From positions 62,001 through 126,000 of the forward strand of contig NZ_JAFBBD010000007.1 in the NCBI RefSeq assembly GCF_016906995.1: a stretch of DNA of 64,000 nucleotides. The letters are read 5' to 3'. Position numbers and translations under genes: made by a program. The notes below the pieces were generated by a model. That model was given only the letters and a program-made list of their open reading frames with translations. It was not told the DNA's origin and searched no databases. This document shows, one piece after another, positions 21,472-38,845 of this stretch (position 1 is its first letter; every line of letters begins with the position of its first letter). Source of the stretch: Spongiibacter marinus (GTDB lineage: Bacteria > Pseudomonadota > Gammaproteobacteria > Pseudomonadales > Spongiibacteraceae).

Positions 21472-21509
21472 CGTATTTGGGTGAGTCGCAAGCTTTAACA
21501 GGGCGCTTG

Positions 21510-21559
21510 TGATTCTGCAATCATAACTTGTCCGCATTTTGTAACCATATCTTGGCCGC
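21510..21559 (+). repeat. Left-end transposase-binding repeats
   Basis: Two direct copies of a roughly 26-bp motif lie back to back: 21510-21535 (core AATCATAACTTGTCCGC) and 21534-21559 (core AACCATATCTTGGCCGC). The same core recurs inverted at the right end. Repeated sites of about 22 bp at both ends are how TnsB recognises Tn7-family termini. Confidence 0.7.
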
Positions 21560-21561
21560 CG

Positions 21562-21585
21562 AAAGTGCAATATAAATTGCACTTT
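21562..21585. promoter_or_regulatory. 10-bp inverted repeat inside transposon left end
   Basis: Perfect arms AAAGTGCAAT and ATTGCACTTT are separated by ATAA. It sits between the transposase-binding repeats and the promoter of the XRE gene. It could be an operator or a terminator blocking read-in from the host; no T-run is present. Confidence 0.45.
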
Positions 21586-21626
21586 GAATCGGTTCCAGCC
21601 GAGAAACTGCAATATTTATTAACATA

Positions 21627-21657
21627 TTGAAAAATATAGAGAAATTTTCTCTATTAT
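21627..21657 (+). promoter_or_regulatory. Predicted promoter with overlapping operator for transposition genes
   Basis: A -35-like TTGAAA (21627-21632) and -10-like TATTAT (21652-21657) have a 19-bp spacer. Between them lies a perfect 19-bp palindrome at 21636-21654 (ATAGAGAAA, one central T, TTTCTCTAT). The placement suits an autorepressing XRE protein, which is encoded 60 bases downstream. Confidence 0.5.
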
Positions 21658-21717
21658 TCTTTACTCGCTTTATTTGATCCAATAATCTTTTTAAAAATTA
21701 CTGGATCGAGTGAAGTG

Positions 21718-22080
21718 ATGACACCATTTGGTAATGTCCTCTCACAATTACGACGTAGCCGAAAACTCCAGCAGCGAGAGCTGGCAGAACGTATTGGCGT
21801 TCAGCCTTGCTATATCTCCGCGATGGAAGGCGGCAAGAAAGGGCCACCTTCAAAAGCCGTCATGCACAAGCTGATCGACGCACTAGAACTTTCCCCTGAA
21901 GAAACCCATTCCCTAACATCCTCCATTGGTCCATCTGAGCGCGTTTTCCGTGTCCCGGAAAGCGTCAGCCTGGAGGAGTATGCCTTTTTGTGGGAACTCA
22001 GACAGAGGCTTGGTTCTTTGAGTGGGGAAGAATTGGCCATTATGACCAATGCCCTGCGCCTTGGCGGGGCGAACCGGTAA
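21718..22080 (+). CDS. XRE-family transcriptional regulator of the transposon
   Basis: 120 residues from the ATG at 21718 (a GTG in frame directly before it is not needed). The helix-turn-helix occupies residues 5-60: VLSQLRRSRKLQQRELAERIGVQPCYISAMEGGKKGPPS, with both helices clear. The C-terminal part is helical (LEEYAFLWELRQRLGSLSGEELAIMTNAL) and probably dimerises. It stands upstream of tnsAB in the same direction, behind a promoter that contains a perfect palindrome. It most likely represses its own and the transposase genes, which is inference from position. Confidence 0.85.
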   Translation: MTPFGNVLSQLRRSRKLQQRELAERIGVQPCYISAMEGGKKGPPSKAVMHKLIDALELSPEETHSLTSSIGPSERVFRVPESVSLEEYAFLWELRQRLGSLSGEELAIMTNALRLGGANR

Positions 22081-22094
22081 CAGCGCTAACCAAT

Positions 22095-22178
22095 AGAGGA
22101 GCTAAATCCATGATCTAGAAAAGAAAAAACCGAAAACAATGGCTTGCTTTCGGCTTCTTCGGGAGTAGTTACTCCGGT
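22095..22178 (+). promoter_or_regulatory. tnsAB leader: strong RBS, ATG, in-frame amber, hairpins
   Basis: AGAGGAG (22095-22101) lies 8 bases before an ATG at 22110 that is in frame with tnsAB. The third codon is TAG (22116-22118), after which the frame stays open into tnsAB. An inverted repeat CCGAAA...TTTCGG (22130-22153) and a second, GGAGTA-GT-TACTCC (22162-22175), follow. This may be a disrupted N-terminus, a minimal leader peptide with attenuation, or a sequencing error. Confidence 0.45.
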
Positions 22179-24704: not shown

Positions 24705-24706
24705 TC

Positions 24707-25780
24707 ATGGATGAGTTGAATAACATCGATATTACCCGCGTTACGAACCTCAACTTCAAAATTCCCCATCGAAACTGGAAGCAGGCCTTTGCAGAAGCCT
24801 TTGTGCTGATGACCACGGCCATGCCGGGAGAAGTCATTTCTATTGTAGGGCCGACCCGAGCAGGCAAAACCGAACTACTCAGGCAATTGGGAGATGCCGT
24901 CTGTGGTGTCGGGCATGGACAGGGCGACGAACAACCGATCGTCTCAATAGAGTTGGTCAACGATGACGCCCATGCACGCTTTACCTTCCGATCCTTTATC
25001 TTGCAGGCATTGGAGATTGTGCGGCACCCCTTTTATTCATCGTGCTTTGCCGATGGCTGGGGAGATGCCACCGTGGAATCCCGCATTGAACGAGCTCGCG
25101 AGAAGACCTTGAACCGGGCGCTTATCAGAGCGCTGATTCAACGTAAGACGCGATTTTTGATCATCGATGAAGCCCAACACATGCGCTACGTGAGCAAACA
25201 AACCATGGCTGCCGTGGGTGTGATGGATGCCCTGAAGTCCATGGCTAAGAAAGCCAACGTGGTATTAGTGATTGCGGGCACCTACCCGATTCTGGAGGCA
25301 ATTAACCGCTCTTCGCACCTGGAAGGCCGTAAGTACGATATCCACCTGTCCCGGTACCATCAAACCGAACATGATCTGGCGGAGTTTCTATGGATATTAA
25401 CGAACTATGATGCAGTGTTAGAGCTAGACAAATCCCTGCCCAGCCTGGTGGACTGCGCCGAGCTGCTGTATCAAGGCACCTTCGGGTGTATCGGCCTGGT
25501 GAGAGCCTGGCTGTACCATGCCTCAGCCTTAGCTGCGACTCGCCAGAAAAAGGTCGATCTTGCACTGATCAAGGAGACCATGAAATCCCCGATGCAGTTG
25601 TACTCCATTGCCGACGAAATCCTAACCGGTGAAACCACGCTAGGTATTTCGCCTTGCTCCGCGTTGAAATCGGCTGTTGAAGCGGAAGCGCCAAGAATAG
25701 CAACCGGTAAAAAACGCAAACCAGGAGCCAAACCGTTTCAGCGCAAAGCCAAGCGGTTTGAGGCCGAGAACCGGGTATGA
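24707..25780 (+). CDS. tnsC: TnsC-like AAA+ transposition regulator
   Basis: 357 residues from the ATG at 24707. A GTG at 24692 overlapping tnsAB is possible but less likely. Walker A is GPTRAGKT (residues 48-55) and Walker B is FLIIDEAQHM, with sensor and arginine regions after it. In Tn7-like systems this ATPase links target selection by TniQ/TnsD to the transposase and enforces immunity. It is encoded between tnsAB and tniQ with almost no spacing. The basic C-terminus (KKRKPGAKPFQRKAKRF) may contact DNA or the transposase. Confidence 0.92.
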   Translation: MDELNNIDITRVTNLNFKIPHRNWKQAFAEAFVLMTTAMPGEVISIVGPTRAGKTELLRQLGDAVCGVGHGQGDEQPIVSIELVNDDAHARFTFRSFILQALEIVRHPFYSSCFADGWGDATVESRIERAREKTLNRALIRALIQRKTRFLIIDEAQHMRYVSKQTMAAVGVMDALKSMAKKANVVLVIAGTYPILEAINRSSHLEGRKYDIHLSRYHQTEHDLAEFLWILTNYDAVLELDKSLPSLVDCAELLYQGTFGCIGLVRAWLYHASALAATRQKKVDLALIKETMKSPMQLYSIADEILTGETTLGISPCSALKSAVEAEAPRIATGKKRKPGAKPFQRKAKRFEAENRV

Positions 25781-25789
25781 GGTGATGCA

Positions 25790-27088
25790 ATGATTAAACT
25801 GTTCTCGCTGCCGATACTTGGGCAAGGGACGGCAGACGTCGAGTCGCTCTCGTCCTACGTCCTGCGGCTGGCATATGAACACGGTGTCTCTGCTGGTACT
25901 TTGCTGTCCGGTATCTTCGAGGCATCAGGCCAGAGTGGGCGTACAGCCCGCCCTGGCCTTGGGGGCCGCACAGGGATTGAAACCCTTTCGCGAGTGAATG
26001 CCTTTTCTAAGCGATTGCGGGTCCAATTGTCTGAGGCTATGGGTCAGGATCTGTTCTGCTGGCCACTGCATTTTCTGGATAAACAGGTCTATCAGATCAG
26101 TACCGAGATTGGCGGATTCCGCTGGTGTCCGGAATGCTTTGCAGAGATGTCACAGGTGGGTGCACCGCGCTATATCAAACAGCTCTGGCACATGGCCGCA
26201 GTGATTCATTGCCCGTTGCACAGAACGCCTTTAGTCGGCACTTGCCCAAATTGTGGGAGTGAGCAAGTTTTCATGCACGTTGATACTTGCATTGGCTGGT
26301 GTGGGAAGTGTGGACATTCGTTGGCAGAAAGGGCGAAAACCCTGACTGCTGATGATATACAGCCATCATGGGCGTGCATGTCTCATGACCTGCTAGACGT
26401 ATTCTCGAAGGCTGCTCGGGCAGGCCAAAGCGAGACGAGCTTTGGCTCTTGCAAGATGTTTGTCGCTGACCTGTTGAATGAATTCACGGAGAGCATGAAA
26501 TCAGATGACAGCATGCCGCCTGATCTTAAGCTCTTGATGGCTGAGTATGCACGCAATCAACATAGGTTCTGGCGACTGATCACCGTGAGGCGATTGGCTT
26601 ACCTGCTGAATGTATCTCTCTATGACTTACTGTCTTCCAACTACCGGGCGATACAGTTGCCCTATAAACCTTCGACGCTAAAAGAGCTGCCTACTCAGAT
26701 CAAACCGCGTAAGAAAGTCGTCAGGAATCACAAGCAGGAATACCAAAAGATAGTAGCGATTATCGAAACGCAGCCGATCCCACCAAGCCTGAAGCGCCTG
26801 GCAAGGTTGGCAAACGTGTCGGTGGGTTACATGGAATACCGGTTTCCGAGCCTGGTGCGGCAAGTGGTTGAGAAATCGCAGGCTTACCAAAAGCGGGAAC
26901 AGTTGACCAGGCGCTACCGCGCCCAGGCTGCGGCACTCCAGTTCTTTATTGCGGAGCGCTATTCGGACCACACCCGGTCTCGCAAAGAGGCGTATCGGGT
27001 GCTAAAGGAGGAAACAGGACTACCCAAGTGGGTGCTGAAGAATGCCATTCAGACCGCATACGGGGTGATACAGGTGGGAGCCGGGTAA
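25790..27088 (+). CDS. tniQ: TniQ/TnsD-family target-site selection protein
   Basis: 432 residues. The TniQ domain begins at residue 1 (MIKLFSLPILGQGTADVESLSSYVLRLAYEHGVS). Zinc-binding pairs are WCPECF, HCPLHR with CPNC, and WCGKCG (about residues 118-180). The C-terminal half contains helix-turn-helix-like segments (LARLANVSVGYMEYRFPSLVRQV), and it is longer than a CRISPR-associated TniQ and shorter than Tn7 TnsD. With no cas genes in the element and the right end 24 bp from a tRNA-Ile2 gene, the likely job is recognising the 3' part of that tRNA gene. This is inferred from position. The ATG follows GAGGTGATG. Confidence 0.9.
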   Translation: MIKLFSLPILGQGTADVESLSSYVLRLAYEHGVSAGTLLSGIFEASGQSGRTARPGLGGRTGIETLSRVNAFSKRLRVQLSEAMGQDLFCWPLHFLDKQVYQISTEIGGFRWCPECFAEMSQVGAPRYIKQLWHMAAVIHCPLHRTPLVGTCPNCGSEQVFMHVDTCIGWCGKCGHSLAERAKTLTADDIQPSWACMSHDLLDVFSKAARAGQSETSFGSCKMFVADLLNEFTESMKSDDSMPPDLKLLMAEYARNQHRFWRLITVRRLAYLLNVSLYDLLSSNYRAIQLPYKPSTLKELPTQIKPRKKVVRNHKQEYQKIVAIIETQPIPPSLKRLARLANVSVGYMEYRFPSLVRQVVEKSQAYQKREQLTRRYRAQAAALQFFIAERYSDHTRSRKEAYRVLKEETGLPKWVLKNAIQTAYGVIQVGAG

Positions 27089-27192
27089 TCTACCAGTAGA
27101 TTCAGAGGGGAGGATGGATGCTCTTCTTGTTTTTTCTCCTCATTTGAGGTATAAAAACCAGAAGACTTAAGCTTCATCCCGGAGAAAGCTGA

Positions 27193-27816
27193 ATGAACGA
27201 CCAACTACACACTGAAGAAAATGCCCTGGATCGGTTATCCCAGCTGGGTATCCCGATGGCAGCGCTTACAGAGTCTGTATGGCAAGGTTACCTTTTACGA
27301 TCTCGCACAACGAGTAATCACCCAAGAATAGCCCGCGGGTTCTTTATGTGGGCAGAAGCCGTAGCCGTGTTGAGAGAACAGCTTATCCCCCATGGTTGGG
27401 TCAAAGAGGATAAAGGCAACTACGAACTATCGGTAAACCAGAAAGCAGGTTTGGCCATCGTCGTTACTACTGGCGATGAAGCAACCGGCATGATCGGGGC
27501 GACGCCTTCAAATAAGTGCCCTAAGGGTGTGAACACGGCTGAAGCCGTTGAAACGAACAATCAGCTGGACATGTTCAGTGAGCTATTACCTGCAATTGAA
27601 GAAGTTCAAGGCCTTACAACCTGGGTATTGCTGATGCATTTAGCTACTGATGAAGTGCGTTGCGAGCTCTCCCTGCCATCCAGCATTTCCAACGGCAAAA
27701 TCAATGGCTGGAAAGAGCGCATTATTTTACCGAGCATGCCGTTGGATGATGATTCAATCGAAATTCAAGCACCTGATTTGCCGGATATAGAAGTACCTAT
27801 CAAGAAGAAGGCATAA
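27193..27816 (+). CDS. Unknown cargo protein paired with XRE-ImmA/IrrE peptidase
   Basis: 207 soluble residues, no recognised domain. The N-terminal 80 residues are helical (ALDRLSQLGIPMAALTESVWQGYLLRSRTTSNHPRIARGFFMWAEAVAVLREQL is the best conserved-looking stretch, here only outlined). The middle (LAIVVTTGDEATGMIG) contains a GD-rich beta segment followed by KCPKG, and the C-terminal part is a beta-rich domain with ELSLPSSISNGKINGWKERIIL. GGAGAAAG precedes the ATG. The stop codon is one base from the start of the XRE-ImmA gene, so the two are translationally coupled, which suggests a protein that the peptidase controls or cleaves. I recall similar pairs in other mobile elements but cannot name them. 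Confidence 0.75.
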   Translation: MNDQLHTEENALDRLSQLGIPMAALTESVWQGYLLRSRTTSNHPRIARGFFMWAEAVAVLREQLIPHGWVKEDKGNYELSVNQKAGLAIVVTTGDEATGMIGATPSNKCPKGVNTAEAVETNNQLDMFSELLPAIEEVQGLTTWVLLMHLATDEVRCELSLPSSISNGKINGWKERIILPSMPLDDDSIEIQAPDLPDIEVPIKKKA

Positions 27817-27817
27817 C

Positions 27818-28981
27818 ATGTTTAACAATACTCGTTTTGCTCTCGCGCGAAAGCGCCGAGGGCTAACAAAGCGGGCATTGGCGAAAGAAGTGGGTGTAAC
27901 AGATCGGTCGATTACTGCTTATGAGAGCGGTCAAACCGTGCCTGAAAGCCAGACTATTGAAAAGATCGCGAACGCACTTCGTTTTCCGGTCGAATTTTTC
28001 TTTGCTGATGACGTAGAAGAGCTACCTGTTGAGGTGGCTAGCTTTCGTGCGCTTACCAAAATGACTGCTGCCCAAAGAGACATTGCGCTTTCTGCGGGAT
28101 CTGTTGCGTTACTTTTGAACCAATGGATTGAGAACAAGTTTGATTTGCCTGTGCCGGATTTTCCAGAGGATTACAGAATCTCTTTGGATGAAAGGGCAAA
28201 AAAGGATAAAGGTCAGCAATCGTCTGAAGGAGACCAATACCCAAGCGGGGGGCATGGCAATGACCCGGAAGCGGCCGCTGAAATGCTCCGCCGCTACTGG
28301 GATTTAGGTGAACTTCCAATCAAAAACATGATCGCACTGCTTGAAGCTAAGGGTGTGCGTGTCTTCTCGCTATCTGTTGATGCCAGAGAAGTTGACGCCT
28401 TTTCCATGTGGTATGGCGACATTCCTTTTGTGTTTCTCAACACCAAGAAAACAGCAGAACGTTGCCGTTTTGATGCGGCACATGAACTCGGCCATTTAGT
28501 TATGCATCGTCACGGTGCTCCCCAAGGGCAAGAAGCTGAGAAAGAGGCTAATGCCTTCGCGTCGGCCTTTTTAATGCCGCGCAGGAGTGTTCTGGCAAAT
28601 GCGCCGAGATCGGCGACTTTAAAAAGTCTCGTCTCTCATAAAAAATACTGGAATGTTTCTGCCGCCGCGCTTAACTATCGGCTTCATTCTCTCAACCTGA
28701 CAACCGACTGGACCTATCGAACGCTATGTATTGATCTAGCCAAACTAGGGCGGGATCATGAGCCGGAGCCGTCACCTTTTGAGACTTCGCAAGTGCTCAA
28801 AAAGGTATTTGCTAGCTTGCGAGAGGACGGTATTTCCAAAGCCGATGTTGCGAGAGAACTGCTCATCCAGCCGGAGGAGCTGGACGAGCTTACTTTTGGT
28901 TTGATGTTGAACGTCTTGAGCGGAAGATCACACAGTAATATCTCTCAAAATAAGCGACCAAGTTTAAAGCTGGTGACTTAG
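27818..28981 (+). CDS. XRE helix-turn-helix fused to ImmA/IrrE metallopeptidase
   Basis: 387 residues. The N-terminal helix-turn-helix (about 5-58: ALARKRRGLTKRALAKEVGVTDRSITAYESGQTVP) is followed by a linker and an ImmA/IrrE zinc peptidase domain with H222-E-L-G-H226 in AAHELGHLVMHRH and the downstream Glu in KEANAFASAFLMP. In phage and ICE systems such proteins cleave a repressor after DNA damage, and others act as antitoxins. The coupled upstream unknown gene could be substrate or toxin. The gene converges with the RT-nitrilase gene, with 16 bases between the stop codons. Confidence 0.88.
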   Translation: MFNNTRFALARKRRGLTKRALAKEVGVTDRSITAYESGQTVPESQTIEKIANALRFPVEFFFADDVEELPVEVASFRALTKMTAAQRDIALSAGSVALLLNQWIENKFDLPVPDFPEDYRISLDERAKKDKGQQSSEGDQYPSGGHGNDPEAAAEMLRRYWDLGELPIKNMIALLEAKGVRVFSLSVDAREVDAFSMWYGDIPFVFLNTKKTAERCRFDAAHELGHLVMHRHGAPQGQEAEKEANAFASAFLMPRRSVLANAPRSATLKSLVSHKKYWNVSAAALNYRLHSLNLTTDWTYRTLCIDLAKLGRDHEPEPSPFETSQVLKKVFASLREDGISKADVARELLIQPEELDELTFGLMLNVLSGRSHSNISQNKRPSLKLVT

Positions 28982-28997
28982 CCTCAGAAGAATCTTA

Positions 28998-31900
28998 CTA
29001 CTTGGGCGGCAGCTTTCGCCTGTCGCCCAATATTCTAAATCCTTCGGGCACTGGTTTAAATTTGTCGCCTTCTTCTGGCCAGCGTTTAGCGCGACTTTGA
29101 AATCCTCTGAGTGCTGCAATATCCAAGGTCGCAGCAACCACGAAGTCATTGTCCCCACCTCTAAGTCTGGCAATATCCCGCAGGAAGCTCTCTTTGGCAG
29201 GTGATCGAACGCGGCTATCGCCATACTTTCGGTTGTTTACCAATATGGTGTAAGCATGAACATCCAGTGCAGCGGATTCGATCAGGGATGCGAAAGTATC
29301 CAGATCCCTGTTCCAACTGAGCACCATAAGGGCATCAACTGCACCCTGGAAACGAATTCGTGCCTTGCTGTTTTGCAGTTCTGAGCAAACCATGACACTA
29401 AAGTTAACGCCGTTATGAATATAAATTGGCTTCGGTGATTTTTTAGAAAGATCCCACTCCTTGCCAAATTTCACCGTGAGGTCTTTGTCTTCGCCAACGG
29501 CTGGCTCAAGCTTGGGTTGCCATATTTTTACAAAGGTTGGATAGCCGAGTCGGTTATCTGCCAAAACCAAGGCGGCCTCACTCAAAATCTTGTTTCCTCC
29601 GCTATGCCGATATTCCGTTCCTGCAATTAAACTAATACCCGCCGCACTAAGTCTGGCGGCAATGCTATTCAGCCAGCGCAACGGAATTGAAAGCTCTGGG
29701 AAAAGGACGTAATCCGGCCTCGGATTCAGCTTTAATACATCGTTAACCAATTTGGATATTTTCTGGTAACGCTTGCGGCTTAAATTCGGTTTATTGCATG
29801 CGGTAGCCGCCCAATCGCTGTCTTCGGTACGCAGGTTGGTTAATGCAACCACCACCTTGTCTTTACTGTCAGTGCCAATTTTCAGATACTTTTTGCGTCG
29901 CTTTGCTTTCTTCTCGTTGGCGTCTTGTTCCGCTGCAAGAAGAGTGGGTTTTATCCAAACGCCACGCAAAACTTGAGTATATTTAGCCCATGTTACTGCT
30001 GGGCTGAAGCCTGGAGTTTTGCCTGAAGCGGAAGGCAAGCCAACACATTCGGGGGCTAGTTCCGATATTTCAGCCGGAGATAGAGGTCGAGTGGGGAAAA
30101 GATAAGGCAGGTAGCTGTCATTTTTCTTCTGCCCTCTGGTTACCTTGCCTAATCTGGTTTTGCGTGTAGAGTTGATAAACCGTTCAAATATCTCCACGTC
30201 GAGAAGCTCGGCGTTGCCGAGCAACTTCAGAATTTGCTTCTCTTTCTTAGTATCACGTTTACCAACCAGCTTCTCAGCAGACTGGCTATTCAAAATGTAC
30301 TTATAAGCCTCTTTCGCAAGATCTGCTGACGCAACAAGCGGTGCTTTATTTTCGAAATCAGCCACATCAAAGCGCAAATCCAGCAGCGTCTCAAAATCAG
30401 TTAGAGTTGCCACAATTTGATTCAGAAAGAGATCTGCTAAGCGCTTCTTCTTGCTTGAACGTTCTCCCAGAAATAGTTTGCTGGGATCATGGTAGCGAGT
30501 GGCTGCATCAATAAACAGCCAAGTTAAAGTACCTTTGATATAACCCCAAAGGTCTTTTAATACTTTAGCATCGCATCCGTTAATACGAACCGTTTTTCCT
30601 CTGCCGACCTCAGAAGCTAAGGTATCGATCGCTCGATAGGACTTCACTGCTATTTGCTCAGCCTGCTCCCATTCATTCATGCTGATTGCAAAGCCGAGTA
30701 GTCTTGGTAAGTAGTTAAAATGTGCAAAGAGATTGTCTGCCCGCAATATATGGTTATGGGCAAACTGATAAAATTCCTCGCGCTGCTCCTTCCATTGATT
30801 TGGTGGCAGATCCCGAGCCAGGGTTTCAACATGACGCAGCTGTAGTGACCATCCTAGCCGACGAATAGTCAAGCCATCGGCCCGACGCAATGTATCTGCA
30901 TTTTCGCCCACGTTTCCCGCAGCAGAGAGCACCTTGGCTGCCGTCGAGTGCTCTAATTGATCTGGCGACGGCATTAGACGGTGCTCGCTGGAAAGTTCGT
31001 ATATCTCCTTTTCGATGCTGTCCAGTAGGTCAAGGCCTGCGCGCCCTTGTAATACAAATAACTTTTGCTTGTCAGACTGAAGCGATATTCTGGTCTCGCC
31101 TTGGATATCAGATCCCTGATTAATCTCCCAAACCTTATCGCTCTTGGCGTTCTGTGAAATGTAGTTTTCGCCCATTCTGAACTGAACCATGTTCATCAGA
31201 TCTAGGCTATTGGTGATCGTGCCCGTATCACGCAGTACCAAGAACATATCATCTACATAGCGGCCATAGTGAATCGGCGCTAGTTTTTCCAGAACAAGCT
31301 TGTCCCACCTGTGAAGTAAAGCATTGGAAATAACACGGCTGCACGTCAGGCCGATCACCAATCCTCCGTTTATCTTAGCTTTCTTGCCCCCAACGGATTG
31401 GCCGAATTTTTCTGCACCTTCAGCCCAGCCGCATAGAAAACTTGCGAGTTGTTCGGTAAAGGCCTTCTCTTCAACTGTCAGCTCCAGATCAAGTGCTTCA
31501 AGTAACGCTGTACCAGAAATCGCCATCGGGTCAATAAAGTGGTAGTAGCTCTTCAAGTCGAGAGAAACCGCAATTACGTCGCGATCCTTTTCCAGCTCAT
31601 CACGAATGGCTTTTAATCCATCGCTTCGCCACTTTTGATAGGGCTGAAAATAGGGTACAAACGAGCCAATGGAGCTAATATGGAATGGCTTATCATCGTT
31701 CTCTGCGAATAGTTCATCGTTTCGGATGCGCTTTAGCCGGGCGCCATAGCAGCTATCATCGAGCTTGGCATCAAACTTGTGGCCAACCATGTTGATCCAC
31801 AAGGCTGAAATGATATGAGTATCGACCGGAAAGTCACCCACAATCCGGAATTCAGGCGTTACATCGTAATTTTTGAATAGGCTTTCGACTGCCCGTTCAG

Positions 31901-32201
31901 GTTTGGAGAAATGTACATGACCATTTTCACTGCGATCTGGCTTTCTATCAGTTGATAGTTTCTTTGGTAGTAATCGAAAATCTCCAAGCAACTCTTCGTC
32001 GTCTTCAAAGCCTGAGTTGTTCTTCAATCGGTCTAGCAGGCCATTTAGGTTTGCCAGCAAGTCTTGTTCGTATTCTGCAAACTTAATCGCGGTGGGGAAG
32101 GTGTTTTCGAAAAAACAGTCGGCTTTGGCTTTTCGGTATGCGACGAGCAGATCTTCAATTCCGATCGAATGCCAACCATCGAATACTGCTTTATAAGGCA
32201 T
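28998..32201 (-). CDS. Reverse transcriptase-nitrilase fusion, DRT type 1-like anti-phage protein
   Basis: 1067 residues from the ATG at 32201, which has GGGGAA 8 bases upstream; a longer frame to 32231 overlaps poor sequence. An RT domain of the UG group occupies about 100-400, with catalytic YVDD at residues 315-318 and the DLKSYYHFID motif upstream. A helical middle follows. The C-terminal nitrilase domain holds the Glu-Lys-Cys triad: E836 (LFPELSIP), K897 (WQPKLEPA) and C939 (MVCSELQN). RT plus nitrilase on one chain is the hallmark of defence-associated RT type 1 (UG1), shown elsewhere to block phage. UG5-type RTs also carry nitrilase domains, so the exact class needs a tree. It is the last gene of the defence operon, 55 bases after kwaB. 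Confidence 0.87.
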   Translation of the reverse strand: MPYKAVFDGWHSIGIEDLLVAYRKAKADCFFENTFPTAIKFAEYEQDLLANLNGLLDRLKNNSGFEDDEELLGDFRLLPKKLSTDRKPDRSENGHVHFSKPERAVESLFKNYDVTPEFRIVGDFPVDTHIISALWINMVGHKFDAKLDDSCYGARLKRIRNDELFAENDDKPFHISSIGSFVPYFQPYQKWRSDGLKAIRDELEKDRDVIAVSLDLKSYYHFIDPMAISGTALLEALDLELTVEEKAFTEQLASFLCGWAEGAEKFGQSVGGKKAKINGGLVIGLTCSRVISNALLHRWDKLVLEKLAPIHYGRYVDDMFLVLRDTGTITNSLDLMNMVQFRMGENYISQNAKSDKVWEINQGSDIQGETRISLQSDKQKLFVLQGRAGLDLLDSIEKEIYELSSEHRLMPSPDQLEHSTAAKVLSAAGNVGENADTLRRADGLTIRRLGWSLQLRHVETLARDLPPNQWKEQREEFYQFAHNHILRADNLFAHFNYLPRLLGFAISMNEWEQAEQIAVKSYRAIDTLASEVGRGKTVRINGCDAKVLKDLWGYIKGTLTWLFIDAATRYHDPSKLFLGERSSKKKRLADLFLNQIVATLTDFETLLDLRFDVADFENKAPLVASADLAKEAYKYILNSQSAEKLVGKRDTKKEKQILKLLGNAELLDVEIFERFINSTRKTRLGKVTRGQKKNDSYLPYLFPTRPLSPAEISELAPECVGLPSASGKTPGFSPAVTWAKYTQVLRGVWIKPTLLAAEQDANEKKAKRRKKYLKIGTDSKDKVVVALTNLRTEDSDWAATACNKPNLSRKRYQKISKLVNDVLKLNPRPDYVLFPELSIPLRWLNSIAARLSAAGISLIAGTEYRHSGGNKILSEAALVLADNRLGYPTFVKIWQPKLEPAVGEDKDLTVKFGKEWDLSKKSPKPIYIHNGVNFSVMVCSELQNSKARIRFQGAVDALMVLSWNRDLDTFASLIESAALDVHAYTILVNNRKYGDSRVRSPAKESFLRDIARLRGGDNDFVVAATLDIAALRGFQSRAKRWPEEGDKFKPVPEGFRILGDRRKLPPK

Positions 32202-32256
32202 TGTTGTTCTTCCCCAATCAGAAACTCTCAAGGAGTCGGCGTCTTGCGCTTAAGTA

Positions 32257-33174
32257 TCAAAGATACTGTTTCGAGTTTGTCAGGCACTTCCTTTTCGTCA
32301 ACGGAGCAGTGACGTAATCCTCGTCTAGAAACCTAATCAGCTCCTTAAATTGCTTCTTATCGCTTGGTATCAGAAGCTTACCGTCGTCAGTTACTTTAAT
32401 ACTTATATGATGCTCTTCTGGAAGCTCTGCATTGAAGTTATTGGCGACAGTTTGAATATCGGTGACGGTTATATCTTTTAGAACTTCATTTTTCTGAAGT
32501 AAGGCGATCTTCTTGCGGATGATGGAATCAGCGTGGTCTTTAAAGCTTGCTTCGTCCTCAAAGGCGAACAGCTCGGTATCGGCAAAGGCGTCTAGGTCAG
32601 TATCGGTGGCTTCACGGTAATAGTCGGCCAAGTCTAGAAAGCGTTTGGTGTTGTGGTAGGAAGTGAAATGCAAAGTGCTATTACTGAAACTGGCAGTGAG
32701 CTTGTCTTGCAGTATCAGGCCGGGCTCTTCAAGGCGTTTGTAGGTATCTCCGGCATGAATGGGAAGTCCAACCAACGTCCAGCGATTAGAAAGCAGTTTT
32801 CCCGCATCAAAAACCTGAAAGTTGACAGTTTTGTTTACGGCTGTCCATGTACCGCTAAACAAAGCTTTTATTCTGTGCGTCTCGGTATCAAGGTTTAAAA
32901 CAGGGCTGGTCAGTGGATTACTAATGGCTTGCCCAATTTCGGGAGGTAGTGGGTAGTTAGAAATGGTGAATATTTCACCTTCATCGACATTGTAGCTGCC
33001 GGTAAACTCAATCGGCTGTTTGTCGCTCAAAAGCGCAGCTTGTTGCCCTGCGAACAATTGCATTAGTTCGGCGCTGAGTGGTGCTGTCAGTGGGATGCGA
33101 CGGATGGGAGTGTTGTTGTCATCGACCATTGCAAAGAGGTTGGTTGGGTTATTGCTATTTGGCATGATTGGCAT
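32257..33174 (-). CDS. kwaB: Kiwa defence protein KwaB (DUF4868)
   Basis: 305 soluble residues. The C-terminal block (DGKLLIPSDKKQFKELIRFL, then EDYVTAP...YLTN-like SKQYL end) and the length match DUF4868, the domain that defines KwaB. The central LDLADYYREATDTDLDAF segment is acidic. KwaB is reported to bind DNA and act with membrane KwaA against phage. Its start overlaps the kwaA stop by 20 bases, as expected for a coupled pair. A small hairpin, AGTATC-AAA-GATACT (32254-32268), spans the stop codon ahead of the RT gene. The start at 33174 is favoured; ATG 33165 is possible. Confidence 0.82.
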   Translation of the reverse strand: MPIMPNSNNPTNLFAMVDDNNTPIRRIPLTAPLSAELMQLFAGQQAALLSDKQPIEFTGSYNVDEGEIFTISNYPLPPEIGQAISNPLTSPVLNLDTETHRIKALFSGTWTAVNKTVNFQVFDAGKLLSNRWTLVGLPIHAGDTYKRLEEPGLILQDKLTASFSNSTLHFTSYHNTKRFLDLADYYREATDTDLDAFADTELFAFEDEASFKDHADSIIRKKIALLQKNEVLKDITVTDIQTVANNFNAELPEEHHISIKVTDDGKLLIPSDKKQFKELIRFLDEDYVTAPLTKRKCLTNSKQYL

Positions 33175-33724
33175 CCAGGATCATGTATTCAGTCAGTTGC
33201 ACCACCTGCGAAACATTCTTGCAGTCAGTAATGTTCTGGCGAGTGATCAGCACATAGGTGATATCGCCGTCAATTGTTACCTCATAAAAGTGGTAACCAA
33301 AAAATCCCAGCAAGGGATTGAAATGGTAGGCGTGGGAGTTGTACACAATAAAAAAGAAGATCACCGCGATAAACACCAGCACCGGAACACTGATGGTGTT
33401 TTGGCTCTGGTTGATTAGCGGCAGCAGGTAGACCAGAAGAAATCCGACAATCTCTTTATCCACGGTCTTCACGGCCTTAATTTTGACAGGTAAGCGCTCC
33501 AGGCCATGTTGCGATGCTGCCAGCCAAACCAGCGCAAAGCACAGTACGCTCAGTATCAATGCAGCAAGCAAATAGCTGCCTCCAGCCATCCAATGGGCGA
33601 CAACATTATCTGACCACGGCAGCGTGGATTTCCACGCATTGCTAAGCTCAACAAACCACAGAGTGAGAAAAATCGGCGCTAAAGAGGTGGAAACTAACGC
33701 TAGTTTGGCTGCTTTATTAAGCAT
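33155..33724 (-). CDS. kwaA: Kiwa defence protein KwaA, membrane subunit
   Basis: 189 residues with four hydrophobic segments (about 8-25, 47-69, 91-106 and 111-128) followed by a short cytoplasmic beta-rich tail (YEVTIDGDITYVLITRQNI). This plan and the position in front of kwaB match KwaA, the membrane sensor of Kiwa. The start codon lies inside the last codons of the HsdM-HsdS gene (8-bp overlap), which ties Kiwa translationally to the restriction-modification genes. The family call relies on topology and the kwaB neighbour more than on sequence motifs. Confidence 0.78.
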   Translation of the reverse strand: MLNKAAKLALVSTSLAPIFLTLWFVELSNAWKSTLPWSDNVVAHWMAGGSYLLAALILSVLCFALVWLAASQHGLERLPVKIKAVKTVDKEIVGFLLVYLLPLINQSQNTISVPVLVFIAVIFFFIVYNSHAYHFNPLLGFFGYHFYEVTIDGDITYVLITRQNITDCKNVSQVVQLTEYMILDANHAK

Positions 33725-35696
33725 AATCCATCCAGTCAGTGTCTATTATTTCGCTAATAATTGTTTTAATCATTGATTCTGAATCAGTCACGGACTTGGC
33801 GAGTGTGTTACGCAGTTTTTCGCATTTTTCCATTAGAACGACCAATCTATTTTGATCTTCAATTGACGGCAAAACGACCTTGATCTGTTTGATGCTGCCA
33901 ATCGAAAGCGTGACATTGGCCATTCCTTTCATTAGAGGGACCACAACATCATCTTTAAAGTTGTTCAGATAAAAATATAGATACTTCGCAGATACGACTG
34001 AAGGATCGTTCGGTATTGCTGCTGCCAATATGTTCCCTAACGCAAATTTACCATGCTGATAGTGGATTCTTTTAATTGAGGCATGGCCATGACCCGTCGA
34101 TGAAACTATTGGTATACATACAGCTTCACAATCCAGTTGATATTCATTGTGCCATTTTCTTTCCTCTCCGGTCGTAACTAAAGGATAGTCGCCTGGTATG
34201 GCCTTCGTGATGCCTGTTTGACCCTTCTCCACCTTGCATATCTGACCTAGCTCAACAATTGTTGAGTTGGTTAGCTTAAAGTATGAATCGAATATATCTT
34301 TAACTTCGTCAGAAATCTCTTTCAGGTCTTCATTTATCGTATCGATATAATCTTTCGCTGACCCCTCATTTGATCTCACTCGAGTCGGGTTTTTGATGTC
34401 TAGATCAAATTGTCTTTCCTTGATCTCGTCGATAGATACCCGCCATGAATAGTCTCCCTCAGTGCGCTTATTCCACCACTTCCGAATTGCAACAAAATCT
34501 TCATTGCTAATCGGCTTTGTTTTTGAATAAGCTTTTATATCTGGCGGGCAAACATGTTGGTAATACCAAATCTCTTTTGTGGGGCTTCCTTTGGTAAAAA
34601 AAATGAGATTTGTAGCAACTGTGGCGTATGGCTTGAAAACAGAATTGGGTAGTCTAATAATCGTGTGGACATTGCAGTCATCAAGCAGCTTTTGGCGAAT
34701 ACGCTGCTTAACACCATCACCGGTGAGTGAGCCGTCAGGCAATACAATGGCGGCCCGGCCACCCTCCTTGAGCAGTTGAATTATCAAAATTAGAAACAGG
34801 TCTGCCGATTCCTTGGTGCGGAAGGTTTGCGGGAAATTATTTTCGTTATTGTTCGAGACGACGCCACCAAAGGGCGGGTTGGCAATGATTACGTCCACTC
34901 TATCTTTATGCGTATATTCGCTTAAAGGCCGCTGCAGTGAGTCGCCGAATTGAATATTGGGAGTAACAATGTCATGCAAAATCAGATTTGTATTGGCTAG
35001 CATGTAGGGCAGCGGCTTGTATTCCCAGCCACGAACATTATGGCCAATGGCTTCGCGCTCTTTAACATTTCTGGCGGATGCTTTTAAATGCTCTATTGCT
35101 GCTGTTAAAAATCCCCCGGTTCCGCAAGCGGGGTCGAGTATAGTTTCATTATGTGTGGGATTGACCATCTCTGTCATAAATTGAGTAACAGCGCGCGGTG
35201 TGTAGAATTCGCCCAAGGTGCCTGCGCTTTGCAATTCACTCAAAAAGGTTTCGTAAATTTGCCCGAACAAGTGAAGGTCTTTGCTGTTATTGAAGTCAAT
35301 CTCATTCAGCTTGTTGATTACCTGGCGAAGGTGGATTCCAGATTTCATGTAGTTGTAGTTGTTGGCAAAAACCTCATGAACAAGCACGGCACGACGATTT
35401 GCAGTAGATAGGTCAATCTCGGACAGCGTGGGGAATAATTTGCGATCTACAAACTGCAACAACTCATCGCCTGTCATGCCTTCATCGTCACCTGCCCATT
35501 CATCCCAGTGCAACTCAGGTGGGATGGGTGAAGAGTAGTTGTCGTCCATCAGCTCCAGCTCTTTGTCTTTATCGCTGAAAATTTTCAGAAACAACATCCA
35601 GCCCAATTGCAGAATGCGCAGTTCGTCGCTGCCCGTGCCGGTGTCCTGGCGCATGATGTTGCGGGCTGTTTTTACGATGCCTGATACGTTTGCCAT
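33717..35696 (-). CDS. hsdM: Type I restriction-modification HsdM fused to a single-TRD HsdS
   Basis: 659 residues. Residues 1-150 are the HsdM N-terminal helical domain. The adenine N6-methyltransferase core has motif I DPACGTGG (D188) and motif IV NPPF (N273). After about residue 430 the chain turns into an HsdS-like part with one target-recognition domain (IVELGQICKVEKGQTGITKAIPGDYPLV...) and one coiled conserved region (IEDQNRLVVLMEKCEKLRNTL). Standard type I systems have a separate HsdS with two TRDs. A fused half-specificity subunit implies that two copies pair, giving a symmetric bipartite target and both methylation and restriction guidance. It overlaps kwaA by 8 bp and follows hsdR after 25 bases. 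Confidence 0.87.
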   Translation of the reverse strand: MANVSGIVKTARNIMRQDTGTGSDELRILQLGWMLFLKIFSDKDKELELMDDNYSSPIPPELHWDEWAGDDEGMTGDELLQFVDRKLFPTLSEIDLSTANRRAVLVHEVFANNYNYMKSGIHLRQVINKLNEIDFNNSKDLHLFGQIYETFLSELQSAGTLGEFYTPRAVTQFMTEMVNPTHNETILDPACGTGGFLTAAIEHLKASARNVKEREAIGHNVRGWEYKPLPYMLANTNLILHDIVTPNIQFGDSLQRPLSEYTHKDRVDVIIANPPFGGVVSNNNENNFPQTFRTKESADLFLILIIQLLKEGGRAAIVLPDGSLTGDGVKQRIRQKLLDDCNVHTIIRLPNSVFKPYATVATNLIFFTKGSPTKEIWYYQHVCPPDIKAYSKTKPISNEDFVAIRKWWNKRTEGDYSWRVSIDEIKERQFDLDIKNPTRVRSNEGSAKDYIDTINEDLKEISDEVKDIFDSYFKLTNSTIVELGQICKVEKGQTGITKAIPGDYPLVTTGEERKWHNEYQLDCEAVCIPIVSSTGHGHASIKRIHYQHGKFALGNILAAAIPNDPSVVSAKYLYFYLNNFKDDVVVPLMKGMANVTLSIGSIKQIKVVLPSIEDQNRLVVLMEKCEKLRNTLAKSVTDSESMIKTIISEIIDTDWMDYA

Positions 35697-35721
35697 TAAA
35701 TCATTACTCTTTTTTTAAACA

Positions 35722-38115
35722 TCAAGCCGCTTGATAAAGGGCTTTTTCTAACTGGGTTAATGCATGCAAATATTGAGACTTGCCGCCAAACAAGTTGATG
35801 ATTTCTGTTGGGGTTCCGAATTGGTCAAATGGATTAACTTTGAGCACTTTGATATCTTCAATGTTTTCGATACCTTCGTCGGCATATTTGTCCAGTAGGG
35901 CTTCCAACACTCTTCGTGCTTGGTCGCCGTACTGGGTGAACACGTCGCGTTTTTTAACCTGTTTTGCGCGTTCAGCGCGAGTGAGTGGTGGCTGGTCGAA
36001 AGCGGTATGACAGATCATGTCGAATATATCCATTTCTTTGCCAATGGCTTCCTTCAGGTTCTCTAGCACAATTCCTTGTTCGGTGAGCTCATCAATGATT
36101 GCCTGCTTCTTATCGGAGCTATGCCATTTATTGAGAAAGTCGTTCAATGTATGGTACTGTTCACGCACTTTTTGGCGTGTGTAATCTTTCAAGCTGCCAG
36201 TGATCAGTTTGCCATTACCATCCATGTACTGAATCCGCTCGTTCAATACAGCGACATTAACACCATTGACGTAATATTTTGGGCGTGGTTCGTTGATGAT
36301 GTCGCCACCATCAATAATGGGCGGAGCTCCTTGGGGTGGCTCGAAGATGATTTCCTCCCCTTCATCACCTCGGATGGTTTCGCCTTCTCCCAGTTCCTCT
36401 TCCGGAGTTTCAAACTCATCGTCGTCACCGAGTTCTTTTACTCGTACTGGATCGCCGTCGAACGCAGGATCTGCAAACAGATCGGTGACATTGCGAAAAT
36501 CAAGAATAGTAAAAAAGGTTTTTCCGAATTCCTCATTGATACGGGTTCCACGACCAATGATCTGCTTGAATTCGGTCATGGAGCCAATATTGCTGTCGAG
36601 TACAATCAACTTGCAAGTTTGCGCATCCACCCCAGTTGTCATCAATTTGGAGGTGGTCGCAATCACTGGATAGGTTTCTTCCGGGTTGATGAAGTTGTCC
36701 AGTTCGCGTTTACCTTCCTCGTTGTCACCGGTAATTTGCATGATGTACTTGGGGTTTTGTGCCATTAGATCGGCGTTGGCGTTCGCTAGTGCAGCCCGCA
36801 TTCGCTGGGCATGGTCGATGTCCACACAGAACACGATAGCTTTGTCGAAACGGTTAGTCCGTTTCAGGTATTCGGTGATTTTGTTGGCTACTGCGGCGGT
36901 GCGCTCGTCGATCACTAGGTTTTTGTCGTAATCCCTGCGATTGTAGATACGGTCATCCACCAGCTGGCCATTTTTATCAGTTTTTCCTGCTTCAGGTCGC
37001 CAGCCTTCCAGATCGACATTCAACCCCACGCGCAGCACCTTGTAGGGAGCGAGGAAGCCGTCCTGTATGCCTTGCTTGAGTGAGTAGGTGTATATTGGAT
37101 CGCCGAAGTATTCGGTGCTGGAAACTGTCTCGGTCTCTTTTGGTGTCGCAGTCAGGCCGATATGGGTAGCGGTGTTGAAGTAGTCGAGAATCTCGCGCCA
37201 AGCACTATCTTCCGAGGCGCTGCCCCGGTGGCATTCGTCAATAACGATGAGGTCAAAAAAATCCGGGCTGAATTCTCGATAGGCGTCTTTGTCTTCATCG
37301 TAATTAGTGAGCCCTTGATAGAGGGCAAGGTAAATTTCATAGGACTTATCTATTTTCTTATGCTTGATAACTGTCATTTTGTCTTTGAAATGACGAAAAT
37401 CGCCGCGTCGAGTCTGGTCAATCAGTGCGTTGCGGTCGGCAAGAAATAGAATGCGTTTCTTTGCTCCAGACTTCCAAAGTCGGTGGATGATCTGGAAAGC
37501 TGTGTACGTTTTACCGGTACCGGTAGCCATGGTGAGCAGGATACGTTGCTGTCCTTTTGCGATAGCTTCTACCGTGCGGTTAATGGCGATTTGCTGGTAA
37601 TAGCGTGGGCTGCGGCTGGTACCATCGAAAAAATAATCTTGAGCGATTATCCGCTCTGCGTCAGGCGTTTCAATGCCCTTGTATTGCTTGTAGCGCTTCC
37701 ACAGTTGGTCTGGCGAAGGGAATTCATGCAAGGTGAGTTCACGTTCGACATTACCACTGGACGCAGTACGATCATGCTCATAAAAACCATCACCGTTGCT
37801 GCTGAAAACCATGGGGATATCCAGAATCGTGGCGTAATCCAATCCTTGTTGGATTCCAGACATTACTGAGTGGGTATTGTCCTTGGCCTCGATCACTGCA
37901 ACAGGAATGTTTGGCCTGTAATAGAGGATGTAATCCGCTCGTTTGCGTTTTCCGCGCACTGACAGATTTCCCTTTACGTAAATACGCCCGTCAGTGAAGC
38001 CGACTTCTTCCCGCACTTGTTTTTGTAGATCCCAGCCAGCTTTTTCTAGAGCAGGAGTAATAAACTTTGTGCAGATGTCGCGTTCTGACAATCTCTTTTT
38101 ATTGGTCATCTCCAC
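35722..38115 (-). CDS. hsdR: Type I restriction endonuclease subunit HsdR (EcoEI-like)
   Basis: 797 residues. The N-terminal nuclease domain carries the PD-(D/E)xK-type residues E76-A-K78 in VIEAKDN. The helicase motor has Walker A ATGTGKT (197-203), the DECH box (from D293) and motif VI QIIGRGTRI. The C-terminus is the EcoEI_R_C helical domain. HsdR translocates DNA and cuts it when HsdM-S finds unmethylated sites. It is the first enzyme gene of the operon, 8 bases after the small XRE regulator gene. An Asp/Glu-rich linker (GDDDEFETPEEELGEGETIR) separates motor and C-terminal domain. Confidence 0.93.
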   Translation of the reverse strand: MEMTNKKRLSERDICTKFITPALEKAGWDLQKQVREEVGFTDGRIYVKGNLSVRGKRKRADYILYYRPNIPVAVIEAKDNTHSVMSGIQQGLDYATILDIPMVFSSNGDGFYEHDRTASSGNVERELTLHEFPSPDQLWKRYKQYKGIETPDAERIIAQDYFFDGTSRSPRYYQQIAINRTVEAIAKGQQRILLTMATGTGKTYTAFQIIHRLWKSGAKKRILFLADRNALIDQTRRGDFRHFKDKMTVIKHKKIDKSYEIYLALYQGLTNYDEDKDAYREFSPDFFDLIVIDECHRGSASEDSAWREILDYFNTATHIGLTATPKETETVSSTEYFGDPIYTYSLKQGIQDGFLAPYKVLRVGLNVDLEGWRPEAGKTDKNGQLVDDRIYNRRDYDKNLVIDERTAAVANKITEYLKRTNRFDKAIVFCVDIDHAQRMRAALANANADLMAQNPKYIMQITGDNEEGKRELDNFINPEETYPVIATTSKLMTTGVDAQTCKLIVLDSNIGSMTEFKQIIGRGTRINEEFGKTFFTILDFRNVTDLFADPAFDGDPVRVKELGDDDEFETPEEELGEGETIRGDEGEEIIFEPPQGAPPIIDGGDIINEPRPKYYVNGVNVAVLNERIQYMDGNGKLITGSLKDYTRQKVREQYHTLNDFLNKWHSSDKKQAIIDELTEQGIVLENLKEAIGKEMDIFDMICHTAFDQPPLTRAERAKQVKKRDVFTQYGDQARRVLEALLDKYADEGIENIEDIKVLKVNPFDQFGTPTEIINLFGGKSQYLHALTQLEKALYQAA

Positions 38116-38123
38116 TCCTTTGG

Positions 38124-38342
38124 CTAGGCTGATGCCTGGTTATTAGTTGAACGCTCAAGCAAATCGCCAACATCACAGTTGAACAACACACAAAGCTTAT
38201 CAAGCGCCTCCAGATCCACTTTCTGGGCCGTTTCTTTGTAGAGCAGAGTTACCGTGGCACGGCTTAGCCCCGTTTCTCTGGCAACGTCGGCAATACGCAT
38301 CTTGTGCTCGCCCATCATGCGGGCGAGATGGCAGCGGATCAT
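38124..38342 (-). CDS. Small XRE-family regulator of the defence operon
   Basis: 72 residues made almost entirely of one helix-turn-helix (MRIADVARETGLSRATVTLLYKETAQKVDLEALDKLCVLFNCDVGDLL), the Cro/C1-type called HTH_26. It is the first gene of the minus-strand operon and lies 8 bases before hsdR. Regulators in this position delay restriction until methylation is established (controller-protein role), which here is inference. The GCGTAA repeats about 140-200 bases upstream are a candidate binding region. Confidence 0.85.
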   Translation of the reverse strand: MIRCHLARMMGEHKMRIADVARETGLSRATVTLLYKETAQKVDLEALDKLCVLFNCDVGDLLERSTNNQASA

Positions 38343-38480
38343 GGCTGTGCCTCTGGCTGGTAATCAAGTTATCAGAATACCAAAGGAGCATACCATGACT
38401 TTGATATTTGCCTAGCATTCTGTGAGTTGAAGTTGAATTATGTGGGGTTGGTTTTTAAAAATAGGATAAAGAATTTCCAA

Positions 38481-38540
38481 ATTACGCGGAGTTACGCGCC
38501 ATATGCGTAATTACGCAAACCATGCGTAATCGTGCGTAAT
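38481..38540. repeat. Cluster of GCGTAA/TTACGC repeats upstream of the defence operon
   Basis: In 60 bases the hexamer GCGTAA or its complement occurs six times: ATTACGC at 38481, GTTACGC at 38491, a 12-bp palindrome GCGTAATTACGC at 38505-38516, ATGCGTAAT at 38522, and GTGCGTAAT at 38532. It lies 139-198 bases upstream of the regulator start. The 426-base stretch from 38343 to 38768 otherwise holds no gene, only these repeats, the transposon right end and the tRNA trailer. It may be an operator array or a set of accessory transposase sites. Confidence 0.6.
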
Positions 38541-38676
38541 TTATATTTCACGGCAGAATAGTGGGAGGCAAGAGTCGCGTGGTAATGCGTACAGGCACTA
38601 TCGCAGGCGCAGGTTTAGGTTGCTGTGAATAGGTGCTGAGAGGAGGTTGTTGCGAGAGGGTTTTGCTATTTGGCGT

Positions 38677-38744
38677 GCGGCCAATTCTGCTTACCTATGG
38701 AAGCATAACCTGGCCAAAGCGGCCACATTATGGTTTCAATACCA
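38677..38744 (-). repeat. Right-end transposase-binding repeats and terminal inverted repeat
   Basis: Read inward on the minus strand from 38744, the terminal 26 bases contain the core AACCATAATGTGGCCGC, matching both left-end copies. A weaker copy (GCAGAATTGGCCGC) ends at 38677. Between them, CATAACCTGGCC (38704-38715) appears in the opposite orientation. The order and spacing differ from the left end, as is usual for Tn7-family ends. Confidence 0.65.
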
Positions 38745-38768: not shown

Positions 38769-38845
38769 TGGTGGGCCCGGACAGACTTGAACTGTCGACC
38801 TGCCGATTATGAGTCGGATGCTCTAACCAACTGAGCTACGGGCCC
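38769..38845 (-). tRNA. tRNA-Ile2 (CAU anticodon, lysidine-modified)
   Basis: The 77-nt minus-strand gene folds as a cloverleaf with acceptor GGGCCCG / CGGGCCC, D-arm AGCTCAGTTGGTTAGAGC, anticodon loop CTCATAA, T-arm with TTCAAGTC, discriminator A and encoded CCA. The CAT anticodon fits tRNA-Met or tRNA-Ile2. The C4-G69 and C5-G68 pairs, which TilS uses to pick tRNA-Ile2, and the overall likeness to E. coli ileX favour Ile2. In Pseudomonas a CAU tRNA lies next to rpoD, and rpoD is also on this side here. The 3' trailer runs for 24 bases before transposon DNA begins. Confidence 0.85.

Follow-up and report, generated by a model that had tools for sequence, protein, structure and literature searches.

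We analysed a 64,000-nucleotide (nt) stretch of the Spongiibacter marinus contig NZ_JAFBBD010000007.1 (hereafter the window) and found in it six minus-strand genes, all with open reading frames (ORFs), that encode in order a helix-turn-helix (HTH) regulator, the EcoAI-family HsdR subunit of a type I restriction-modification (RM) system, a fused HsdM-S protein, the Kiwa proteins KwaA and KwaB, and a UG5-type reverse transcriptase (RT) fused to a nitrilase. We consider it probable that this locus is a mobile, modular defence operon, carried as cargo of a Tn7-like element, expressed as one regulated polycistronic unit and built by cassette exchange. Four lines of evidence support this reading, namely the mosaic structure of the operon, the recurrence of its gene order, a conserved promoter motif and an empty insertion site in a related genome, and the RptR-controlled island of Escherichia coli, as described in part of its source, offers a precedent for repression and induction (PMC12255303).

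By direct sequence comparison, the operon is a mosaic. Its RT is 94–95% identical to those of L066, L093 and G076 (locus L013; G and L numbers label the relative genomes and loci compared), and its regulator is 92% identical to that of L066 and 89% to that of L093. The HsdR of the window reaches 24–25% identity over about 220 residues with L066, L093 and G076, and HsdM 26–27% over 345. The RM-Kiwa block has a counterpart in G508 (HsdR 90%, HsdM 85%, KwaA 83% and KwaB 77% identity), in an operon that lacks this regulator and the RT and has an extra 707-aa gene and separate hsdM and hsdS genes. Homologous DNA shared with G508 extends to about 10 nt beyond kwaB. G135 carries the regulator immediately before the RT, in a different Tn7-like element, and its DNA homology with the window is restricted to the regulator with its upstream region and to the RT. 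Given that the G508 and G135 homologies cover different parts, the RM-Kiwa block and the regulator-RT frame have different histories. The operon may have been assembled by cassette exchange between a conserved head (promoter and regulator) and a conserved tail (RT-nitrilase), in which an EcoAI-RM-Kiwa block like that of G508 would have taken the place of another RM-plus-accessory block.

One scan of genome contigs yielded 76 loci with regulator homologues, each viewed over up to 10 kb of DNA. An RM gene lies within 5.2 kb downstream of the regulator in 59 of them (56 type I-like, three type III only), and the 17 loci without an RM gene in range include contig ends. An RT is in view at seven of the 76 loci and Kiwa at one. 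In L066, L072, L076, L093, L109 and L128 the RT follows a same-strand type I RM system and reaches the end of the viewed locus, with genes beyond it outside view (in L128 the locus edge leaves an 83-aa stub of the RT), and in L108, which is the G135 locus, the RT comes directly after the regulator. L109, on an Enterobacteriaceae contig, has the full window order of regulator, HsdR, HsdM, HsdS, KwaA, KwaB and RT, its middle genes scoring 1.3e-15 as KwaA and 4.3e-9 as KwaB. Its RM system belongs to another family (HsdR 26% identical over 205 residues), its KwaA is 28% identical to that of the window, and its KwaB gives no significant pairwise match with the window KwaB. The two KwaB proteins fall in different clades, and in the RT phylogeny the RTs of RM-AAA and RM-M59 operons share a clade with that of the window (support 100/99), and an E. 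coli plasmid RT shares another supported clade with that of L109 (100/98). Judging from these sequences, the same order was apparently built separately in the window and in L109, that is, assembled more than once. Chance juxtaposition is unlikely and was rejected because the same order recurs from different parts.

The plan of type I RM, another middle cassette and then RT is found in six further loci, namely L066, L072, L076, L093, L128 and G076. A sequence-only reading of the window had proposed looking for the same gene order in other genomes and had held that an order recurring in no related element would be a chance neighbourhood; L109 and these six loci answer that doubt. The middle slot holds a 587–588-aa AAA-type ATPase in L072, L093 and G076, and PDC-M59AB in L066, L076 and L128, the last with two more genes; DarTG and RhuM-like genes occupy it in operons without an RT in view. 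Such a range of unrelated cassettes, Kiwa included, would also be expected if a conserved head and tail and a tolerant region after hsdS passively took up any defence cassette, with modules that are co-expressed and independent and a combination that is unselected. We give this explanation a little less than an even chance. The authors who described RptR likewise see in such a site a potential hotspot of recombination (PMC12255303, in part), and the scattered distribution of RM-linked Kiwa described below also fits it. However, this ordered trio has arisen two or more times out of parts that hardly resemble each other, presumably more often than a purely random slot would allow.

The arrangement of the six genes is compatible with a single transcript. 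The sequence-only reading had described a near-gapless minus-strand run, with which the ORFs, profile matches, gaps and overlaps agree, in support of the tight coupling it had proposed: 8 nt separate the regulator from hsdR and 25 nt hsdR from hsdM-S, and the 8-nt overlap of hsdM-S and kwaA that it had reported is read directly from the sequence. Its 20-base overlap of kwaA and kwaB comes down to about 11 nt, as kwaB probably starts at an internal ATG at 33165, given that the KwaB of G508 begins MPNNNPSNLF. The RT likely starts at the ATG at 32201, where homology begins, which would give a product of 1067 aa and a gap of 55 nt after kwaB. Promoters or terminators between the modules, which had been named beforehand as signs of mere juxtaposition, are predicted at no junction on the operon strand; of its six terminator-like sites, five are intragenic and one lies upstream of the regulator. 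We regard it as improbable that kwaA-kwaB and the RT are separately transcribed neighbours served by internal promoters. Intragenic promoter-like sites do occur (for example on the minus strand at 33634–33605 in kwaA), at chance frequency (15 sites across the region versus 14.1 ± 4.0 by chance, no excess), and the 55-nt gap before the RT could favour such an arrangement. The other gaps and overlaps are smaller still, the junctions lack promoter- and terminator-like sites on the operon strand, and the regulator motif described next is found only once in the element, all of which argue for joint transcription.

A 20-nt motif lies 71 nt upstream of the window regulator start and mostly 57–71 nt upstream in relatives. 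When the motif was trained on one half of the loci and scored on the other (seeded from the sequence of the window, which was otherwise excluded), it exceeded the 99th percentile of shuffled upstream regions in 53 of 74 held-out loci, 47 of which have the site 55–80 nt upstream; 21 of the 74 loci fail. Given that the entire 17.2-kb element has one copy of the motif, upstream of the regulator, a single regulated promoter for the polycistronic run is supported by the sequence and seems the best account of its control. Six GCGTAA/TTACGC hexamers also lie within 58 nt upstream of the regulator (38482–38539), among eleven copies in the element. We rejected this array as the general operator of the family, with only 7 of 73 loci having two or more copies there; it is possibly the site of another regulator. 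On the IncF conjugative plasmids of Klebsiella and E. coli (L051 and L050), the same regulator, at 84% DNA identity, heads another operon, which encodes a type III methyltransferase, a DrmD-like SNF2 protein and a product annotated as a DEAD/DEAH helicase. The Klebsiella plasmid operon was considered as DISARM and rejected, given its DrmD-like SNF2 protein and type III methyltransferase.

The RM components are recognised by their domains. HsdR matches PF04851, PF08463 and PF04313 and thus combines nuclease, helicase and EcoAI-type C terminus. The fused HsdM-S has a single Methylase_S domain (residues 479–632), against the two recognition domains expected of an EcoAI-family HsdS, and aligns over residues 123–651 with the solved chain 7eew_A (638 aa); a single-domain specificity part of this kind would be expected to pair up. 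Its C-terminal part is matched by 57 plasmid records, 52 of them from E. coli, and nine of the ten listed are annotated as N-6 DNA methylase.

In the RT-nitrilase alignment, 15 of 15 rows keep the YVDD motif of the RT, and each of the ten rows that extend into the nitrilase keeps its E, K and C; YxDD and E-K-C we take to be the catalytic residues. The window protein has both the RT palm YxDD and the nitrilase E-K-C that mark a UG5 RT-nitrilase, and its nitrilase part matches DRT1 (PDB 9yfd, E 6.3e-7). An RT search matched 10 of 145 genomes, own genome included, and an RT class search found matches to the family model in 59 of 369 genomes, at full-family level only in the own genome, G343, G391 and G358. 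Most of the protein is present in five of ten plasmid records, three of which were inspected. Without the partial matches (G005, G057, G072, G118 and G131), the RT-domain-only matches, the Leptospira records and G358 (a 4.2-kb contig with surroundings out of view, whose tree label 'G358_solo' is not evidence of a solitary RT), eight other lineages remained. The RT follows a DNA-methyltransferase gene in four of these (G076, G056, G044 and G391) and the regulator alone in one (G135). Type I RM genes precede it in G076, and in G391 MmeI-type methylase and recognition-domain genes do so, with an IS66 transposase gene between. The distant RT-nitrilases of G056 (L016, 8250–13225) and G044 (L017, 8376–13384), 34% identical, overlap an Eco57I-type methylase gene by 4 nt, a possible second kind of methylase-RT pair. 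Elsewhere in the S. marinus genome, G000:C18:14171-14533 gives a match to the RT portion of this model (E 7.4e-13) and probably represents another reverse transcriptase.

Adjacent genes for a membrane protein (kwaA) and a DUF4868 protein (kwaB) identify Kiwa, with PADLOC recovering both, PF16162 over its cut-off and a weak match of KwaA to 9o0i. In the Kiwa system a KwaA tetramer-KwaB dimer supercomplex forms at the membrane. KwaB gave no match by sequence against the PDB, and an AlphaFold prediction from two sequences (mean pLDDT, the predicted local confidence score, 33.9) was not used. Three KwaB searches, with the own genome counted among the matches of each, hit 4 of 369, 13 of 398 and 8 of 293 genomes, giving 21 distinct other genomes and, after removal of G528 (contig end) and G047 (a 55-residue match beside hsdR-hsdM), 19 other Kiwa loci. 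Nine of the 19 have Kiwa in a same-strand run with RM genes, of type I in G508, G404, G409, G572, G756, G997, G1011 and, less tightly, G587, and of type III in G553. In the last (L185, 1413–10033) Kiwa directly follows a GmrSD-like gene and type III Mod and Res, so that Kiwa also joins type III RM systems. In G886 (L208, 4750–16388) Kiwa and a divergent hsdM-hsdS adjoin a run that ends in a TniQ gene, which is probably another Tn7-like element. On the KwaB tree (20 rows, with the split-frame G091 excluded), the RM label requires six changes, four of which supported branches make unavoidable, and its clustering does not exceed that of shuffles (179 of 500 as low), indicating that the RM-Kiwa association was gained or lost repeatedly. 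Viral contigs contained neither the RT nor KwaB in scans that reach close relatives only.

PrrC is held to act as a guard for its host RM system when restriction is blocked. By analogy, Kiwa and the RT-nitrilase could stand behind the RM enzyme and step in once a phage has shut restriction down. The nine RM-linked Kiwa loci point in this direction, as do RTs placed after type I RM genes in seven loci besides the window and after other DNA methyltransferase genes in three distant relatives. Both Kiwa and the RT are also found without RM, however, and the complete difference between the RM families makes a specific protein contact less likely; we find this guard function quite improbable.

Several observations weigh against a mobile, modular defence operon of the kind proposed here. 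Terminator-like sites are in excess across the region (18 versus 10.3 ± 3.2 by chance). The regulator stands first in many RM operons where neither Kiwa nor the RT is in view and may matter for RM alone; of the earlier claim that a single regulator governs the run, one recognisable regulator-promoter stands, and specificity of the regulator for the trio does not. This regulator was not found in G508 or G076, and the specificity part of the window found no match in the HsdS of G508, so that the RM-Kiwa block is not a simple copy of the G508 block. The RT of L109 runs off its contig, its C-terminal part lies on a second one, and the gene may not be intact. KwaA and KwaB stay below the NCBIfam equivalog cut-offs (55.7 of 100 and 18.9 of 200 bits), and by sequence the window Kiwa belongs to the family in a broad sense, not to the curated equivalogs. 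Finally, no RM gene stands beside the RT in three of the eight other lineages (E. coli plasmids, on which an AbiE pair stands divergent, Sinorhizobium plasmids and G343) or beside Kiwa in nine of the 19 other loci. Across the eight lineages, gene context ties the RT to DNA modification systems outside the window operon as well, without making it dependent on them.

The operon lies in a Tn7-like transposon inserted beside a tRNA-Met gene and is its cargo (Table 1). In G013 (L052), of the same genus and about 95% identical here, window positions 21507 and 38745 are adjacent, showing that the intervening 17.2 kb are absent from that genome. TnsA, TnsB, TnsC and TniQ are all present, the TnsA N terminus of the TnsA-TnsB fusion scoring just below the Pfam cut-off (PF08722, 24.7 of 26.5 bits). 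By eye, the element ends are alike in inverted orientation (AATCATAACTTGTCCGC and, as the reverse complement of the right end, AACCATAATGTGGCCGC), and the 5-bp target duplication is imperfect, with four of five positions agreeing. The sequence-only reading made no mention of the Tn7-like genes (22179–27088), the element boundaries or the adjacent RmrT and RmrA genes (27193–28981) that constitute RosmerTA, a name taken from part of PMC11883136. In the congeneric G007 (L053, 3539–7693), an EcoAI-type hsdR-hsdM pair, 55% and 49% identical, lies at the same tRNA-Met, which suggests a recurring insertion place. The RM-AAA-RT operon of G076 also belongs to this tRNA neighbourhood, some 0.6–0.9 kb from three copies of the tRNA gene.

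Table 1. Features of the Tn7-like element and its defence operon in the window, with supporting matches.
Feature	Position	Strand	Evidence
HTH_26 (XRE-type) regulator, 72 aa	38124..38342	-	PF13443 1.7e-21; 76 homologous loci
hsdR, type I restriction subunit, EcoAI family	35722..38115	-	NF046051 1203.7 bits (cut-off 550); PADLOC REase_I 1192 bits; 90% identical to G508
Fused hsdM-hsdS, one target-recognition domain	33717..35696	-	PF02384 1.4e-71; PF01420 2.9e-9
kwaA, Kiwa membrane protein	33155..33724	-	PADLOC 4.9e-58; PDB chain 9o0i_G 'Kiwa protein KwaA' E 0.0035
kwaB, Kiwa, DUF4868	32257..33165 (ORF opens 33174)	-	PADLOC 1.4e-81; PF16162 32 bits (cut-off 26.3)
UG5-type RT fused to nitrilase	28998..32201 (ORF opens 32231)	-	PADLOC RT_UG5-nitrilase 1027 bits
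Putative promoter/operator motif of HTH regulator, consensus ATTTCAACTCACAAAATGCT	38414..38433	-	Score 16.1; only site above 7 in element
Whole Tn7-like element, 17.2 kb, boundaries within about 2 nt	21508..38744	.	Empty site in G013/L052
Second HTH regulator, at transposition end	21715..22080	+	PADLOC HTH_VI 2.2e-9
Fused TnsA-TnsB transposase	22179..24704	+	PF00665 and PF09299 over cut-off; PADLOC TnsB 3.2e-7
TnsC/TniB-like ATPase	24692..25780	+	PF05621 TniB 3.6e-11, PF13401 5.5e-13, both over cut-off
TniQ/TnsD-type target selector	25790..27088	+	PF06527 4e-15
rmrT of RosmerTA	27193..27816	+	PADLOC 1.3e-63
rmrA of RosmerTA (HTH and IrrE-like domain), convergent with operon	27818..28981	+	PADLOC 4.3e-160; PF06114
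tRNA-Met gene, 24 nt outside right end of element	38769..38845	-	ARAGORN

In the operation we envisage for the operon, the small HTH protein would repress its own promoter via the conserved site and so set the level of the downstream genes, as the conservation of this site and the analogy to RptR suggest, and repression would ease during infection. Going by published relatives or what is known of the families, the RM enzyme would then cut unmodified DNA, Kiwa would act at the membrane with KwaB binding injected DNA, and the RT-nitrilase would act on the remainder, perhaps as an abortive-infection device. A stronger version, which we find doubtful, is an integrated chassis in which one phage-responsive promoter drives three layers in a selected order, head and tail are fixed, the RM genes and the middle cassette change together in one block, and Kiwa and the RT-nitrilase form a coupled back-up to restriction. 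These loci bear on the question of whether defences stacked in one place work together or are simply neighbours. The shared order built from unrelated parts (window and L109) and the loci with a module swapped or missing (G508, G135, G076, L066 and L072) are natural replicates that permit direct tests of synergy and shared control, and the portable promoter-regulator module shows how a new cassette could gain ready-made control at once.

Parts of the operon resemble systems already described, which we compare here from portions of the respective sources. Kiwa as described (Zhang et al. Cell 2025, via PMC12904381) likewise comprises adjacent genes of the KwaA and KwaB families; in contrast, the window Kiwa is diverged, below the NCBIfam cut-offs and placed in a type I RM operon. 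Surveyed UG5 RTs, of which 50% co-occur with a nitrilase, share the C-terminal nitrilase with the window RT, which differs from them in its position after an RM-Kiwa run (PMC8934634). A survey of Tn7-like elements lists RM, Kiwa (23 elements) and defensive RTs among the cargo and mentions insertion downstream of tRNAs, and the trio in one operon is undescribed in the parts of that survey covered (PMC8649781). Among titles and abstracts, with preprints outside the search, none was found to describe an RM-Kiwa-RT-nitrilase trio, which is not proof of absence. Judging from the portions covered, RM operons that house other defences, a small repressor gene at their head and Tn7-like cargo are already published (PMC12255303, PMC11411939, PMC8649781); in the literature searched, no account turned up of the RM-Kiwa-RT-nitrilase combination or its recurrence, of the portable promoter-regulator or of the head-and-tail mosaic.

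The nearest precedents are two RM operons with embedded defences. TgvAB, on Vibrio cholerae VPI-2, is, like the window Kiwa, a two-gene defence inside a type I RM operon, for which complementary targeting was proposed; unlike Kiwa, it is a type IV restriction system, and no RT is mentioned in the part of the source covered (PMC11411939). The RRDM island of enteropathogenic E. coli (RptR-type I RM-DarTG2-M48) shares with the window a small repressor-type gene in first position, a type I RM system with another defence embedded and, as predicted for the window, one promoter (PMC12255303, in part, as for all that follows on RptR). RptR represses its operon, and the hsdM of that operon rises over 15-fold within an hour of infection. 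The two differ in that RptR is a 79-aa repressor with TAGCTA sites and the window regulator a 72-aa HTH_26 protein with another conserved site, and in that the island carries DarTG2 and the window Kiwa and an RT-nitrilase on a Tn7-like carrier. None of the RptR sites TAGCTA, TAGATA, TATCTA and TATATA occurs in the 300 nt upstream of the window regulator, and RptR is absent among the PDB matches of this regulator up to E 0.1, the two proteins not having been compared directly. By analogy, the window operon may work like an RptR-type regulated RM island, and we do not class it as one.

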